A DNA stretch of 36,350 bases. Origin: a virus. The stretch is from the IMG/VR virus record IMGVR_UViG_3300012008_000022, positions 1 to 36,350 of that record. One strand, 5' to 3'. A model generated the notes under the pieces. The model saw nothing but the letters and a program-made list of their open reading frames with translations. It had not been told where the DNA came from and did not search any database. This document shows positions 32,975-36,350 of the stretch, in pieces (position 1 is the first letter of the stretch; the number at the start of each line of letters is the position of its first letter). Position numbers and translations under genes: made by a program.

Positions 32975-33365
32975 CGGTGTTTCCTCTCAATAGGGCGGTT
33001 GCGTAGTTGTCACAACCGCGCTCGTTTGTTGGTAGTCCACGAAGATGCTGGACGTGGTGTCCTAGTTCATGGGCAAAAGTGAACAAATCGACATTGAACT
33101 TCTTAGTTCGGTCTTTAAAGTCGAACTTTCGACAGGGAGAAGAATCCACCCATACACGAATACGGTTCTCGATGCCCAAGTAGTCGCCAATGGTAGCCTT
33201 GCCTTTACCGATTCCGAAGATGCGTTGGGATTCCGCTGGCGGATTGTATCCTACCCCGTAGCCGTACACCAAGAGGGTGCCGTCGAAGCCCGCCTTCTTT
33301 GCTAGGAGGCGCCAGAGGCGCTCACCACCGGGTAATCTCTCAGAGCAATGTCTAACGATTTTCAT
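32943..33365 (-). CDS. Zincin-type metallopeptidase, HExxH
   Basis: ATG 33365 is taken; GTG 33383 is possible. The clear motif is FAHELGHHVQHLRGLP with H99, E100 and H103, followed by NERGCDNYA, where E115 could be the third ligand. The N-terminal half (LLVYGYGVGYNPPAESQ, RIRVWVDSSP) is unrecognised. A zinc peptidase between an HNH gene and the terminase could process virion or host proteins. The target is unknown. Confidence 0.7.
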   Translation of the reverse strand: MKIVRHCSERLPGGERLWRLLAKKAGFDGTLLVYGYGVGYNPPAESQRIFGIGKGKATIGDYLGIENRIRVWVDSSPCRKFDFKDRTKKFNVDLFTFAHELGHHVQHLRGLPTNERGCDNYATALLRGNTVGTRNQNTGG

Positions 33366-33750
33366 AGCACGTACAACTTTCACAGTGTCTCTGTTCTCTT
33401 GCACGTTGCCCGGATGGTTGCTGGATAACCCAAAGTTCCAAGTTATCCGGCCTGTTGTCCGTTCTGTCTCCGTTCTTGTGGTGAACAGTCTCGCCGGGTT
33501 GGAGTGGCCTTCCAAGTATCTGTTCCATCACAAGGCGGTGTTCCGGAATGTACTTTCCGGGGGCTACCCAGACTCGCCTGTAGCCCTTGTATCCTTTGTC
33601 CTGAACCCCTCCTTTCCATTTCGGATTGTTAGACCCAACTTGGTAGGACACGGAGCAGGACTCGGTACAAAACTGCTGGCCCCTATTCCACGGTCGGAAC
33701 TTGGCGTCGCAGTTAGTACACTCTTTATATGCCCTCATTCGGACACTCAT
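33352..33750 (-). CDS. HNH endonuclease with N-terminal zinc finger
   Basis: ATG 33750 follows AGAGGTAAC. The N terminus holds CTNCDAKF and FCTESC, a four-Cys zinc site. The catalytic part is EHRLVMEQILGRPLQPGETVHHKNGDRTDNRPDN, with the HH (90-91) and N103 of the HNH_3 fold. HNH genes beside a terminase can be required for packaging, or can be homing elements; the zinc finger plus HNH_3 arrangement is common in homing types. Confidence 0.8.
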   Translation of the reverse strand: MSVRMRAYKECTNCDAKFRPWNRGQQFCTESCSVSYQVGSNNPKWKGGVQDKGYKGYRRVWVAPGKYIPEHRLVMEQILGRPLQPGETVHHKNGDRTDNRPDNLELWVIQQPSGQRAREQRHCESCTCYENR

Positions 33751-33847: not shown

Positions 33848-33920
33848 TGCCCCTTACAGGATTCGGACCTGTACTGAGAAGGTTTTAAATCTTCCGCCTC
33901 TGCCGTTGGGCTAAAAGGGC
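33848..33920 (-). tRNA. tRNA-Leu(UAA), short variable loop
   Basis: 7-bp acceptor GCCCTTT/AAGGGGC, D-stem GCC/GGC, anticodon loop TTTAAAA (UAA), T-stem ACAGG/CCTGT, A73. The T-loop is TCCGAAT, giving C55, and A31 faces C39. The variable region is 5 nt, unlike the long arm of bacterial Leu tRNA. No encoded CCA. Confidence 0.8.
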
Positions 33921-33978
33921 TAGTGCCGCGTATTTACCACGGCCCTGTTGGGTTCCCGCTCGCGCAAGGACCCCACGG
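33921..33978 (-). other. Spacer between Leu tRNAs
   Basis: Fifty-eight bases with partial GGGTTCC/GGACCCC pairing around a GC-rich loop. It does not fold as a tRNA. It may be a processing spacer or a decayed tRNA. Confidence 0.25.
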
Positions 33979-34051
33979 TACCTTCCGAGGGATTCGGACC
34001 CTCACTATACAGGTTTTGAATCTGTTGCCTCGACCGTTGGGCTAGGAAGGC
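33979..34051 (-). tRNA. tRNA-Leu(CAA), short variable loop
   Basis: Acceptor GCCTTCC/GGAAGGT (G1-U72 wobble), D-stem GCC/GGC, loop TTCAAAA (CAA), T-stem GAGGG/CCCTC, A73. T-loop TCCGAAT (C55), A31-C39 mismatch and a 5-nt variable region repeat the oddities of the UAA isoacceptor. Confidence 0.8.
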
Positions 34052-34055
34052 TCAG

Positions 34056-34128
34056 TAAGCCATATGGGATTCGGACCCATGACACGCGGGTTAAAAGTCC
34101 GCTGTTCTTACCGCTGAACTAATGGCCT
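34056..34128 (-). tRNA. tRNA-Lys(UUU)
   Basis: Acceptor AGGCCAT/ATGGCTT, D-stem GTTC/GAAC, anticodon stem GCGGA/CCCGC with A31-C39 mismatch, loop CTTTTAA, T-stem ATGGG/CCCAT, T-loop TCCGAAT (C55), A73. Only 4 bases separate it from the preceding tRNA. Confidence 0.88.
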
Positions 34129-34129
34129 G

Positions 34130-34202
34130 CGACCCATAGGGGACTCGGACCCCTTTTCTCCTGACTGACAATCAGGCATCTTAACCCGCTGACTCATGGG
34201 CC
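34130..34202 (-). tRNA. tRNA-Asp(GUC)
   Basis: Acceptor GGCCCAT/ATGGGTC, anticodon stem CCTGA/TCAGG, loop TTGTCAG, T-stem AGGGG/CCCCT, T-loop TCCGAGT (C55). G73 fits Asp identity. Position 8 reads G instead of U, and the D-stem is 3 bp. Confidence 0.85.
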
Positions 34203-34208
34203 GTGCTG

Positions 34209-34279
34209 CACGTACGGAGGGAATCGGACCCTCAATAAGAGATTTGGAGTTTCCTGTGTTACCGTTACACTACGCACGC
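34209..34279 (-). tRNA. tRNA-Trp(CCA)
   Basis: Acceptor GCGTGCG/CGTACGT, D-stem GTGT/ACAC, loop CTCCAAA, T-stem GAGGG/CCCTC, T-loop TCCGATT (C55), G73 as in bacterial Trp. The anticodon stem GGAAA/TCTCT has an A30-C40 mismatch. Confidence 0.85.
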
Positions 34280-34281
34280 TG

Positions 34282-34354
34282 TAAGCGAGATGGGATTCGA
34301 ACCCACGTCCACGGAGGTTAAGAGTCTCCTGCACAACCGCTGTGCGACTCGCCT
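34282..34354 (-). tRNA. tRNA-Lys(CUU)
   Basis: Acceptor AGGCGAG/CTCGCTT, D-stem GCAC/GTGC, loop CTCTTAA, T-stem GTGGG/CCCAT, canonical T-loop TTCGAAT. The anticodon stem GGAGA/CCTCC has A31-C39. With tRNA-Lys(UUU) it covers both Lys codons separately. Confidence 0.87.
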
Positions 34355-34355
34355 G

Positions 34356-34426
34356 AGGCATCTGGGGGAATCGGACCCCCGACTTCTGCTTTGCAGGCAG
34401 AGGTCTTACCACTTGACGAAGATGCC
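34356..34426 (-). tRNA. tRNA-Cys(GCA)
   Basis: Perfect acceptor GGCATCT/AGATGCC with U73 (Cys identity), anticodon stem TCTGC/GCAGA, loop CTGCAAA, T-stem GGGGG/CCCCC. The T-loop TCCGATT again has C55 although every other element is canonical. Confidence 0.92.
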
Positions 34427-34433
34427 GTAACTG

Positions 34434-34507
34434 TAGCCCACAAGGGATTCGAACCCTTAAAATCGCGCTTCTAAGGCGCGCACGTCTGCCAATTGCGTCA
34501 ATGGGCC
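34434..34507 (-). tRNA. tRNA-Leu(UAG), short variable loop
   Basis: Acceptor GGCCCAT/GTGGGCT, Leu-like D-loop (AATTGGCAGA), anticodon stem CGCGC/GCGCG, loop CTTAGAA, 5-nt variable region ATTTT, T-stem AAGGG/CCCTT, canonical TTCGAAT, A73. It is the third Leu tRNA here without a long variable arm. Confidence 0.87.
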
Positions 34508-34582
34508 AAGTAGTGGCTGCCTATCCGTCTAGAAACTTTGGCACTTCTCGTCCGGACCTCATGAGGGCCACTGGAACCACTG
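34508..34582 (-). ncRNA. Structured inter-tRNA element, possibly a degenerate tRNA
   Basis: AGTGGC and GCCACT pair across about 60 bases, enclosing the perfect palindrome CCTCATGAGG and a GTGCCAA segment that could be the remains of a Gly(GCC) anticodon loop. No T-arm is recognisable. Either a decayed tRNA or a small structured RNA. Confidence 0.3.
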
Positions 34583-34654
34583 TATCTGCCTCAGGAATCG
34601 AACCTGATACGCTCGGGGCTTCACGCCGACGTTCTACCACTGAACTAGACAGAT
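34583..34654 (-). tRNA. tRNA-Phe(GAA)
   Basis: Acceptor ATCTGTC/GGCAGAT, D-stem GTTC/GAAC, loop GTGAAGC, T-stem TCAGG/CCTGA, canonical T-loop TTCGATT, A73. The anticodon stem TCGGC/CCCGA has a C31-C39 clash, G32 could pair with C38, and G37 is unusual for Phe. Confidence 0.78.
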
Positions 34655-34658
34655 GCGG

Positions 34659-34731
34659 AGCCGAGTGAGAGGGTCGAACTCTCCGGTGGGACGCTACAAG
34701 TGTCCTGCACCACCATCGGTGCTTACCCGGC
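34659..34731 (-). tRNA. tRNA-Thr(UGU)
   Basis: Acceptor GCCGGGT/ACTCGGC, D-stem GCAC/GTGC, loop CTTGTAG, T-stem GAGAG/CTCTC, canonical T-loop TTCGACC. The anticodon stem GGACA/CGTCC has A31-C39, and position 8 is A. The 3' end of the neighbouring HNH gene overlaps its 5' half. Confidence 0.85.
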
Positions 34732-34999
34732 GTTTATGAGTGCGCTCGCGGTGGCAATTGGAACATACCACGTCGCATTTGTCAATCTCTCTACGTATCT
34801 TGTCTAAGTTCCAACTCATCATCTTTGATACAGACGTAAGTTTGTTGCCTCGGTGGTCGAAATCCATGATGTACGGAGGGTATTTCGTACCACAGTCAGA
34901 ACATGGAATGGACTTCGCCTCATCGGTGAGGGCACGCCTCTCAGCGTATCGAACCCTCTGGTACTTATCGTGAGTCTGCTTATACTCAAGTGGGTATAT
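34694..34999 (-). CDS. HNH endonuclease inside the tRNA array, no canonical start
   Basis: A frame closed by TAG 34696-34694 encodes CSDCGTKYPPYIMDFDHRG and, after a helical stretch, CDVVCSNCHRERTHKRR, the two-knuckle HNH-type zinc nuclease pattern. No in-frame ATG, GTG or TTG exists early enough. AGGAG (35011-35007 on the minus strand) stands 7 bases before an ATA at 34999, giving 101 aa. Its end overlaps tRNA-Thr by 38 bases. It is probably a homing-type insertion, either using AUA or having lost its start. Confidence 0.6.
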   Translation of the reverse strand: MYPLEYKQTHDKYQRVRYAERRALTDEAKSIPCSDCGTKYPPYIMDFDHRGNKLTSVSKMMSWNLDKIRREIDKCDVVCSNCHRERTHKRRVSTDGGAGHL

Positions 35000-35012
35000 T
35001 GCTTTACTCCTG

Positions 35013-35083
35013 TACTCTACGGCGGTACTGACCCGCCTTCATCTGCTTGAAAGGCAGACGGCTTACCTTTGGCCTAGTAGAGC
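35013..35083 (-). tRNA. tRNA-Glu(UUC)
   Basis: Acceptor GCTCTAC/GTAGAGT, D-stem GGC/GCC, anticodon stem TCTGC/GCAGA, loop CTTTCAA, T-stem GGCGG/CCGCC. The T-loop reads GTCAGTA: U55 and C56 are kept but 54 is G and A58 is absent. Discriminator A. Confidence 0.82.
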
Positions 35084-35152
35084 GGTAGCCCTGATACACA
35101 CACCAGCCTCAGGGTAGGCTTTATCGAATTATCAGGTCGTTTAGTGTGCTTG
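35084..35152 (-). other. Spacer with terminal GTGTGT/ACACAC pairing
   Basis: About 70 bases between the two Glu tRNAs. The ends pair (ACACAC with GTGTGT) around a GCCTACCCTGAGGC hairpin. It cannot be folded as a tRNA. Possibly a processing element or a decayed tRNA. Confidence 0.25.
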
Positions 35153-35226
35153 TACTCTACGTGGGACTCGGACCCACTATCTCTTCCTTGAGAGGGAAGT
35201 GCCTCAAACCGTTTGGCCTGTAGAGC
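35153..35226 (-). tRNA. tRNA-Glu(CUC)
   Basis: Acceptor GCTCTAC/GTAGAGT (same as the UUC isoacceptor), anticodon stem CTTCC/GGAAG, loop CTCTCAA, T-stem GTGGG/CCCAC, T-loop TCCGAGT (C55). Position 8 is A. D-stem GCC/GGC. Confidence 0.87.
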
Positions 35227-35315
35227 AATTGGGGGTTATCAGTCCCCCGCGCTATCTACTTGACGGCATCATCGGTTTCCCGATTTAACCATTAGCCGTC
35301 TTTTGCTTCACGCTG
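35227..35315 (-). ncRNA. Structured RNA with GNRA hairpin between tRNAs
   Basis: On the minus strand, GACGGC/GCCGTC (35300-35295 with 35267-35262) closes a region containing a perfect ATCGG-GAAA-CCGAT hairpin (35284-35271). A second stem GGGGG/CCCCC (35248-35231) follows. There is no T-loop or anticodon loop. The GNRA tetraloop and nested stems suggest a real folded RNA. Confidence 0.45.
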
Positions 35316-35390
35316 TTATAGCGGGAGGGGTCGAACCTCCGATGACGAGTTTCAAAGACTCGCGCCCACACCGACACAGGCTACGCTACA
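35316..35390 (-). tRNA. tRNA-Gln(UUG)
   Basis: Acceptor TGTAGCG/CGCTATA with the U1-A72 pair typical of Gln, anticodon stem CGAGT/ACTCG, loop CTTTGAA, T-stem GGAGG/CCTCC, canonical T-loop TTCGACC. The D-loop is long (about 12 nt). Confidence 0.85.
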
Positions 35391-35391
35391 G

Positions 35392-35463
35392 TTAGCGGGG
35401 AAGGGGTCGGACCTTCGTATCACAGGTTCAGAGCCTATTGCCTTACCACTTGGCTACCCGCCA
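35392..35463 (-). tRNA. tRNA-Gln(CUG)
   Basis: Acceptor TGGCGGG/CCCGCTA (U1-A72), D-stem GCC/GGC, anticodon stem ATAGG/CCTGT, loop CTCTGAA, T-stem GAAGG/CCTTC, T-loop TCCGACC (C55). Confidence 0.88.
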
Positions 35464-35464
35464 G

Positions 35465-35536
35465 TATTCTCGCGGGGAATCGGACCCCGACATTGTGCGT
35501 ATCAGGCACATGCGCTAACCGTTACGCTACGAGAAC
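35465..35536 (-). tRNA. tRNA-Ile(GAU)
   Basis: Acceptor GTTCTCG/CGAGAAT, D-stem GCGT/GCGC, anticodon stem TGTGC/GCACA, loop CTGATAC, T-stem CGGGG/CCCCG, T-loop TCCGATT (C55), A73. Its D-arm is identical to that of the Ile(UAU) tRNA. Confidence 0.9.
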
Positions 35537-35538
35537 GG

Positions 35539-35610
35539 TGGACCATCAGAGAATCGGACTCTGACCTCCGCATTGCAAGTGCGGCGTGCTCCCATTAGCA
35601 CTAAAAGCCC
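35539..35610 (-). tRNA. tRNA-Ala(UGC)
   Basis: The acceptor GGGCTTT/ATGGTCC keeps the G3-U70 Ala identity pair but has a U6-U67 mismatch. D-stem GTGC/GCAC, anticodon stem CCGCA/TGCGG, loop CTTGCAA, T-stem CAGAG/CTCTG, T-loop TCCGATT (C55), A73. Confidence 0.86.
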
Positions 35611-35634
35611 ATGGCCGCAGAACGACTGCGACTG

Positions 35635-35707
35635 TCATCCCGCAGGGAATCGAACCCTGTCACTGGTGTATATAAGACACCTGCGCTAACCGTTACGCTA
35701 CGGGACT
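35635..35707 (-). tRNA. tRNA-Ile(UAU)
   Basis: Acceptor AGTCCCG/CGGGATG with an A1-G72 mismatch, D-stem GCGT/GCGC, anticodon stem GGTGT/ACACC, loop CTTATAT, T-stem CAGGG/CCCTG, canonical T-loop TTCGATT. It reads AUA directly; most bacteria use a lysidine-modified CAU tRNA instead. Confidence 0.87.
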
Positions 35708-35708
35708 G

Positions 35709-35784
35709 TCAGTGTGGCAGGATTCGAACCTGCGATATCATAGCCCCAAACTACGCGCCTTGAACCAAACTAGGCCACACACTG
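35709..35784 (-). tRNA. tRNA-Pro(UGG)
   Basis: Perfect acceptor CAGTGTG/CACACTG (C1-G72 as in Pro), D-stem GCCT/AGGC, anticodon stem CGTAG/CTATG, loop TTTGGGG with G37 typical for Pro, T-stem GCAGG/CCTGC, canonical T-loop TTCGAAT. Confidence 0.92.
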
Positions 35785-35790
35785 ATGCTG

Positions 35791-35863
35791 GGTGATGGGC
35801 GGGAGTCGCACCCGCTTAGTCGGATTCACAGTCCGAAGCCGCAACTACTTTGGCTTCCATCAC
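35791..35863 (-). tRNA. tRNA-His(GUG), atypical
   Basis: Perfect acceptor GTGATGG/CCATCAC with C73, anticodon stem TCGGA/TCCGA, loop CTGTGAA. Oddities: the base at -1 is T rather than the G needed for His identity, the D-loop lacks GG, the T-loop is TGCGACT (G55), and positions 8-9 are AA. Confidence 0.85.
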
Positions 35864-35865
35864 AG

Positions 35866-35937
35866 AACCCCCGACAGGAATCGAACCCGCGTTTCGTCGT
35901 TCGTAGCGACGTGTTAAATCCACTCAACTACGGGGGC
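35866..35937 (-). tRNA. tRNA-Arg(ACG)
   Basis: Acceptor GCCCCCG/CGGGGGT, D-stem GTT/AAC, anticodon stem CGTCG/CGACG, loop CTACGAA, T-stem GCGGG/CCTGT with wobbles, canonical T-loop TTCGATT. A34 needs deamination to inosine. Discriminator T, the same as the second Arg tRNA. Confidence 0.86.
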
Positions 35938-35943
35938 ATACGG

Positions 35944-36018
35944 TGGGCTACCGGGGAATCGGACCCCGCTGAACCATTTTGTAGGAATGGCGTCTAACGA
36001 CCAGCAGACTCGTAGCCT
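35944..36018 (-). tRNA. tRNA-Val(UAC), with C33 and A1-C72
   Basis: Acceptor AGGCTAC/GTAGCCC has an A1-C72 mismatch. D-stem GTCT/AGAC, anticodon stem CCATT/AATGG, loop CCTACAA with C in place of the universal U33, T-stem CGGGG/CCCCG, T-loop TCCGATT (C55). Position 8 is G. A73. Confidence 0.82.
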
Positions 36019-36019
36019 G

Positions 36020-36112
36020 AGGAAAGTAGAGGATTCGAACCCCTGTGGCAGCCTTTACGCCACCTATCCGTTTTCTAGACGGAGGCCCTAGACCAGACTA
36101 GGCGAACTTTCC
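36020..36112 (-). tRNA. tRNA-Ser(AGA), long variable arm
   Basis: Acceptor GGAAAGT/ACTTTCC, anticodon stem TCCGT/ACGGA, loop CTAGAAA, a real class II variable arm (GGTGGC...GCTGCC), T-stem AGGGG/CCTCT, canonical T-loop TTCGAAT. It shows that the array keeps class II structure for Ser but not Leu. The A34 anticodon is rare for bacterial Ser. Confidence 0.87.
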
Positions 36113-36196
36113 ATGAGGGTTCGGATAAAGCATGAACCGACAAACTGCTGGCCCGCGTATCGGGGCTGCCAAGCCAGCCGCCCTGAGGCGGGGCTG
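36113..36196 (-). ncRNA. Structured inter-tRNA element with three hairpins
   Basis: Hairpins: GGTTC...GAACC (36118-36139), GGCTG-CCAAGC-CAGCC (about 36164-36179) and a perfect CCGCC-CTGA-GGCGG (36178-36191). There is no tRNA fold. At 84 nt it is comparable to the tRNAs, so a small stable RNA is plausible. Confidence 0.35.
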
Positions 36197-36273
36197 CTCC
36201 GGGTCAAGGATTCGGACCTTGACATTCCCTCGTTAACAGCGAGTTGGGATACCATTCCCCTGTTCAACCCGGA
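36197..36273 (-). tRNA. tRNA-Asn(GUU)
   Basis: Perfect acceptor TCCGGGT/ACCCGGA with U1-A72 and G73 (Asn identity), D-arm GGGG-AATGGTA-TCCC, loop CTGTTAA, T-stem CAAGG/CCTTG, T-loop TCCGAAT (C55). Four extra bases (AACA) lie between acceptor and D-stem, and A27-G43 is mismatched. Confidence 0.82.
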
Positions 36274-36297: not shown

Positions 36298-36350
36298 AAC
36301 CCCCGGCGGGAGTCGAACCCGCCTTGTTACTCTTTAGGAGAGAGTCGGTC
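36298..36350 (-). tRNA. tRNA-Arg(CCU), cut by window edge
   Basis: The 3' half is visible: anticodon stem ACTCT/AGAGT, loop CTCCTAA, T-stem GCGGG/CCCGC with canonical TTCGACT, and acceptor 3' strand CGGGGGT as in the other Arg tRNA. The 5' half lies beyond position 36350, showing the array continues. Confidence 0.8.

Follow-up and report, generated by a model that had tools for sequence, protein, structure and literature searches.

Phage tRNA genes encoding C55 or A18-G55 at the elbow contact between the D-loop and T-loop

The tRNA elbow and its described variants

Base 55 of the tRNA T-loop is a near-constant uridine and the target of the most frequent tRNA modification. The standard elbow combines two pairs, G18 with pseudouridine 55 and G19 with C56, around a stacked purine at position 57 (PMC7912444); coarse modelling indicates that the 18-55 contact seems redundant if the other elbow contacts remain (PMC4191394). 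This report concerns a 24-gene tRNA array at the right-hand end of a complete, linear virus record in IMG/VR, 36,350 bases long (IMGVR_UViG_3300012008_000022, analysed over its whole length and called the window below), in which base 55 departs from U in more than half of the genes.

The window tRNAs resemble canonical elongator tRNAs (Rfam family RF00005) in their cloverleaf, U54-A58, G19-C56, purine 57, G53-C61 and anticodon features, with scores of up to 63 bits, but differ from them at base 55, where 12 genes have C and one has G (together with A18), leaving no uridine for TruB. Natural C55 is found in the tRNA-Pyl of Desulfitobacterium hafniense, whose elbow contact is made via G13 (PMC7609411). 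That tRNA is highly unusual, whereas C55 in the window lies in standard elongators of many isoacceptors with a normal G18-G19. Phage tRNAs that evade nucleases likewise carry changes at positions conserved in host tRNAs (PMC10264068); their changes are in the anticodon loop and their proposed attackers are known, whereas the window array is altered at an elbow contact for which no attacker is known. A mature U or pseudouridine may also be encoded as C, as in the targets of CDAT8, which edits tRNA base 8 in Methanopyrus (PMC3695527), and of TrcP, which edits tRNA base 32 in Vibrio and has no recognisable deaminase motif (PMC9553926). The window shares with these systems the C in the gene; unlike them, it has no editor that could be found and has a partner G55 class that is not editable. 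As described in PMC7912444 and PMC4191394, artificial Escherichia coli suppressor tRNAs (Zagryadskaya, Kotlova, Steinberg) show that alternative contacts between the D-loop and T-loop can support function, although these were selected in the laboratory, unlike natural phage tRNAs. No description of C55, A18-G55 or G18-U55 covariation in phage tRNAs was found in the open-access literature, subscription papers aside, and novelty is not proven.

Base 55 in the window array and in other phages

The reading favoured here, with a probability of about 0.6, is that these are functional phage tRNAs in which the 18-55 contact has been rewritten gene by gene and which work without TruB modification. The G18-U55 contact would have become G18-C55 in 12 window genes and A18-G55 in the His gene, with the remaining elbow (U54-A58, G19-C56, purine 57 and G53-C61) kept. 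The coded base 55 would stay as it is in the mature RNA, and folding would proceed through a direct 18-55 contact with pseudouridine absent. Because TruB acts on uridine, C55 and G55 tRNAs would be without pseudouridine 55 unless edited. The gene sequences suggest that viral C55 and G55 tRNAs fold without host pseudouridine 55; C55 is probably unedited in the RNA and in contact with G18, and the tRNAs that carry it are probably active in translation.

The 24 genes occupy the minus strand from position 33848 to the window end (Table 1) and represent the union of ARAGORN (20 genes) and Rfam RF00005 (20 genes) predictions, completed by eye. Twelve encode the T-loop T54-C55-C56-G57-A58 and ten encode TTCGA. 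The T-loop of tRNA-His(GTG) begins T54-G55-C56, and this gene is also without G18, its D-loop AAAGTAGTTGC giving A18-G19. In tRNA-Glu(TTC), with the T-loop GTCAGTA, U55 is present and G stands at both 54 and 58. Direct reading of the minus strand thus reproduces exactly the tally of the original prediction, made from the letters of the window (12 C55, 10 UUCGA, His with G55).

Apart from base 55, where C in 12 genes and G in His replace the uridine that is the substrate for pseudouridine 55, the array has paired stems, U33, a purine at 37 and the D-loop GG, and 20 genes score above the Rfam cut-off. All 12 C55 genes retain U54, C56, G57 and A58, and the three best Rfam scores in the window all belong to C55 genes (Ile-GAU, 63 bits; Cys, 62; Lys-UUU, 60.6). 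Across C55-rich arrays, acceptor stems are perfect in 81% of C55 and 83% of U55 genes, and the D-loop GG is kept in 123 of 123 C55 genes (293 of 295 in a wider set). Fifteen C55-rich loci with at least three further C55 genes were also compared with controls after removal of every gene that had matched the search pattern. Base 55 was not U in 30% of the remaining genes (controls, 0.8%), while C56 was replaced in 1.4% (controls, 2.2%) and purine 57 in 0% (controls, 0.1%). Base 55 has therefore been freed while C56 and purine 57 have not, which excludes general decay.

Chance is excluded as the source of the C55 excess in the window. The background rate was obtained by scanning IMG/VR with a tRNA-Asn D-arm and anticodon pattern that ignores the T-loop, followed by ARAGORN on 120 loci. 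In these unselected phage arrays, C55 occurs in 5 of 902 tRNAs (5 of 837 distinct; 0.6%) and G55 in 3, with the proviso that both ARAGORN and the patterns used for searching are biased towards near-standard tRNAs and that contigs are not independent counts; at this rate the binomial probability of 12 C55 genes among 24 is about 5e-21. In 150 genomes of Bacillota, the phylum of Oenococcus, a tRNA-like C55 pattern has 40 matches in total, many of them probably due to chance given that a reversed-pattern control also matches often, and the corresponding U55 pattern has 5 to 36 per genome. Finders that weight the TTC motif heavily may overlook tRNA genes of the C55 and G55 kinds.

Within the window, a gene and its closest relative agree at base 55 in only 7 of 23 cases, and the two most similar genes, both for Ile, have C55 in one and U55 in the other. 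C55 therefore arose several times in the window, and duplication from a single C55 ancestor is ruled out by the same comparison. The first associations of C55 with G57 and T60 arose in part from the search pattern itself, and the comparison was rerun after all pattern-matched genes had been dropped. C55 genes outside the pattern have G57 more often (90% versus 76%, p below 0.001 within loci) and more GC pairs in the T-stem (3.63 versus 3.45, p 0.001), as if other T-arm contacts modestly offset C55.

Considerably more than 100 other viral contigs contain C55 tRNAs, usually a single one, and about 20 unrelated arrays are C55-rich. A scan for two adjacent C55 T-loops matched 43 viral stretches, of which about 29 contain C55 tRNAs; a scan for C55 adjoining U55 returned at least 120, about 98 with C55 tRNAs among the matches listed. 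C55-rich arrays have no neighbouring genes in common, except inside a few related groups, which argues for many independent origins. No shared helper gene was found near these arrays other than a family of short open reading frames (ORFs) that occurs in several phage tRNA arrays.

Among cultured phages, several of Lactobacillus plantarum also carry C55: ATCC 8014-B2 (Leu-UAG, Met), LP65 (Thr), Iacchus (Arg-CCU) and Bacchae (Arg-UCU, Leu-UAA, Phe). The tRNA-Leu(UAG) genes of 8014-B2 and LP65 differ solely in pair 52-62 and base 55, and the Ile-GAU genes of related metagenomic phages have T-arms that are identical except at base 55. Base 55 thus switches reversibly between U and C among close relatives. 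In other related metagenomic arrays, C55 is kept despite paired T-stem substitutions (Thr-CGU, 80% identical; Met, 78%; Phe, 81%). Elbow rewriting is made testable by the L. plantarum phages.

The A18-G55 combination of the window His gene defines a sister class. The C55 sets contain 54 G55 tRNAs, 47 of which have A18 by a simple, crude assignment rule, and the U55 and C55 tRNAs keep G18. A scan for adjacent G55 T-loops that is blind to the D-loop returned at least 120 stretches, with A18 in 387 of 439 G55 tRNAs among the matches listed. In the 85 contigs with both kinds, again among the matches listed, A18 accompanies G55 in 304 of 342 tRNAs and U55 in 8 of 886. This coupling is strong evidence that bases 18 and 55 of phage tRNAs touch as coded, with no repair by editing. 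At least 12 loci are 90% or more G55, including arrays of 27/27, 18/18 and 15/15 tRNAs; arrays of the 27/27 type appear to be complete rewrites of the 18-55 elbow pair.

Six IMG/VR loci (L576, with 27/27, and L520, L490, L516, L558 and L577) have G55, nearly always with A18, in all or nearly all of their ARAGORN tRNAs. The 54-58 pair also covaries among viral loci (tRNA counts: U54-A58, 2836; A54-U58, 56; A54-A58, 17; C54-A58, 10; G54-G58, 8). In 300 Bacillota genomes the A18/G55 pattern has two matches, apparently not tRNAs, and the tRNAs in the parts read of the cultured control phages DSS3_MAL1, Gaia and Bonray are of the usual U55 kind.

Explanations for the departure from U55

Several observations weigh against functional rewriting of the 18-55 contact or against selection for it. 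U55 is kept in half of the window array, which weakens the case for a strong selective need. G18 is retained equally in C55 and U55 genes, so that covariation backs the G55 class and not C55 directly. Departures at positions 54 and 58 are raised in C55-rich arrays (about 6% versus about 1% in controls), and the T-arm context effects on G57 and T-stem GC content are small. Searches with the large terminase subunit (TerL) and the major capsid protein (MCP) gave no close relative of the window phage, and no host was found for it. C55 is also sporadic in bacterial chromosomal tRNAs, which would allow tolerance without special selection: it is found in Asn (uncultured Bacilli), Asp (Prevotellaceae), Gly (Muribaculaceae), Val (Aeriscardovia), Ile and Gly (Oenococcus kitaharae), and in several Patescibacteria. 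Among such chromosomal cases, loci L175, L189, L191, L197, L234 and others have C55 in single isoacceptors (Asn, Asp, Gly, Val, Ile) in TruB-positive genomes.

The rewriting may be driven by a need to escape something in the host that acts on U55 or pseudouridine 55, either dependence on TruB or an attack on the T-loop. The broader proposal that phages have many times independently swapped G18-pseudouridine 55 for a coded G18-C55 (often in part of an array) or A18-G55 (in up to all 27 tRNAs of an array), under selection for tRNAs that do not depend on such a process or are not seen by it, is tentative and falls short of an even chance. Simple tolerance is the main alternative to escape as the cause: a change from U55 to C would be nearly neutral in phage tRNAs that serve a single infection, such changes would build up in some lineages through mutation and drift with no selection to lose U55, and the tRNAs would still work. 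This is a serious possibility, though the odds are somewhat against it. It accords with the excess of C among changes at 55 in C55-rich arrays (81 C, 7 G and 1 A, in arrays chosen for C55), with the U55 genes left in the window, with scattered single C55 genes in many phages and some chromosomes, and with the somewhat freer positions 54 and 58. It does not readily explain the near absence of C55 from most phage arrays (5/902) or why C56 and purine 57 are not freed, and, in an argument from the sister class, whole A18-G55 arrays need two coupled changes per gene, which is hard to achieve by drift. An attack on the T-loop, in which a nuclease or toxin that reads U54-pseudouridine 55 destroys normal tRNAs and C55 or A18-G55 tRNAs survive, has precedents in the CdiA-CT of strain E479, which cuts the T-loop at the junction of its conserved T and pseudouridine (PMC9086364), in phage tRNAs that evade anticodon nucleases via altered anticodon loops (PMC10264068) and in phage tRNAs that counter retron effectors (PMC11555353). 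It is nevertheless unlikely, as ten U55 tRNAs are still in the window array and no such nuclease has been linked to C55 phages or their hosts. C55 and A18-G55 arrays may point to a hitherto unnoticed way in which hosts attack the tRNA elbow or exert control via it, and they are natural experiments on which elbow contacts permit function.

The original prediction offered two explanations, escape from dependence on, or recognition through, pseudouridine 55 and a CDAT8-like C-to-U editing step. Escape from dependence is supported by C55 genes that are intact, kept across divergence and recurrent in unrelated phages, including cultured ones with a TruB-positive host, and by the A18-G55 class; editing found no support. 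The remaining explanations are less probable. Conversion of C to U or pseudouridine in the RNA, after the manner of CDAT8 or TrcP (PMC3695527, PMC9553926), would restore base 55. Deaminases of family PF00383 are not enriched, occurring in 1 of 24 C55-array records and 4 of 22 controls, many of these records being fragments and a TrcP-like domain being one that evades sequence search; none was found among the window proteins scanned. Deamination could not restore G55 to U55, and the modestly different T-arm context of C55 genes looks as if C stayed C. Since TrcP has no recognisable deaminase motif, a similar editor could escape such searches, and editing is rated very unlikely rather than dismissed. 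A host without TruB, in which U55 would have no modification to lose and would drift in phage and host alike, is also distinctly improbable. It drew on Patescibacteria with adjacent C55 tRNA genes, 9 of 11 of which have no TruB match, but a tie between C55 and TruB-less hosts was rejected when this association disappeared among 80 Patescibacteria drawn regardless of C55 (C55-like sites in 14 of 40 TruB-negative and 10 of 40 TruB-positive genomes). Other C55-bearing bacteria have TruB, as does L. plantarum, the host of the cultured C55 phages. Decaying pseudogenes that no longer work as tRNAs are highly improbable: a few of the 24 genes were missed by ARAGORN or fell under Rfam cut-offs and the T-loop of Glu-TTC is odd, but stems, D-loop GG and anticodon loops are about as intact as in U55 genes, C55 is kept across divergence with paired stem changes, and the three top-scoring window tRNAs are C55. 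The earlier judgement that decay was unlikely thus holds.

A TruB match is missing in 40 of 116 Patescibacteria genomes, for part of which incomplete genomes may account. Avoidance of restriction at TTCGAA or TCGA was considered as a cause and rejected, neither site being under-represented in the window (12 versus 11.5 and 131 versus 141, respectively).

The array and its surroundings in the window

Table 1. Positions of the 24 tRNA genes in the window, with base 55 and the basis of each assignment
Gene	Positions	Strand	Basis
tRNA-Leu(UAA), C55	33848..33920	-	direct reading and tRNA search
tRNA-Leu(CAA), C55	33979..34051	-	direct reading and tRNA search
tRNA-Lys(UUU), C55	34056..34128	-	direct reading and tRNA search
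tRNA-Asp(GUC), C55	34130..34202	-	direct reading and tRNA search
tRNA-Trp(CCA), C55	34209..34279	-	direct reading and tRNA search
tRNA-Lys(CUU), U55	34282..34354	-	direct reading and tRNA search
tRNA-Cys(GCA), C55	34356..34426	-	direct reading and tRNA search
tRNA-Leu(UAG), U55	34434..34507	-	direct reading and tRNA search
tRNA-Phe(GAA), U55	34583..34654	-	direct reading and tRNA search
tRNA-Thr(UGU)-like, U55	34659..34732	-	by eye; missed by ARAGORN and Rfam
tRNA-Glu(UUC), U55, T-loop GTCAGTA (G54/G58)	35013..35083	-	direct reading and tRNA search
tRNA-Glu(CUC), C55	35153..35226	-	direct reading and tRNA search
tRNA-Gln(UUG), U55	35316..35390	-	direct reading and tRNA search
tRNA-Gln(CUG), C55	35392..35463	-	direct reading and tRNA search
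tRNA-Ile(GAU), C55	35465..35536	-	direct reading and tRNA search
tRNA-Ala(UGC), C55	35539..35610	-	direct reading and tRNA search
tRNA-Ile(UAU), U55; closest array relative is C55 Ile-GAU	35635..35707	-	direct reading and tRNA search
tRNA-Pro(UGG), U55	35709..35784	-	direct reading and tRNA search
tRNA-His(GUG), G55 and A18 (A18-G55 elbow class)	35791..35863	-	direct reading and tRNA search
tRNA-Arg(ACG), U55	35866..35937	-	direct reading and tRNA search
tRNA-Val(UAC)-like, C55	35946..36018	-	by eye; missed by ARAGORN and Rfam
tRNA-Ser(AGA), U55	36020..36112	-	direct reading and tRNA search
tRNA-Asn(GUU), C55	36197..36273	-	direct reading and tRNA search; under Rfam cut-off
tRNA-Arg(CCU)-like, U55, 3' part, truncated by window end	36299..36350	-	by eye

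The anticodon AGA of the tRNA-Ser gene (A34) is unusual in bacteria and their phages. The T-loop GTCAG (G54/G58) is nearly confined to tRNA-Glu(UUC), which accounts for 10 of 11 cases among viral loci, redundant copies included. Within the array, the minus strand of positions 34697-35038 holds a short ORF whose relatives lie close to tRNA arrays in other phages (L015, L047, L033); it has no match in Pfam and is possibly a mobile endonuclease. The ORF adjoining the array at 33352-33750 has an HNH_3 match.

The window is probably a fragment of a phage genome and encodes a terminase, portal, capsid, endolysin, DnaB helicase, Prim-Pol primase and ClpP-like protease. TerL and MCP searches and an MCP alignment yielded capsid-level relatives only, with identities of about 22-34%, and no tRNA array accompanies any of them. 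Over positions 1-36350, GATC (13 versus 136 expected) and AGCT (2 versus 114 expected) are strongly avoided, which suggests pressure from host restriction or methylation. A repeat close to ACCCTCGGAGGGAAGA occurs on the plus strand between about 841 and 2420, near the starts or ends of several plus-strand ORFs.

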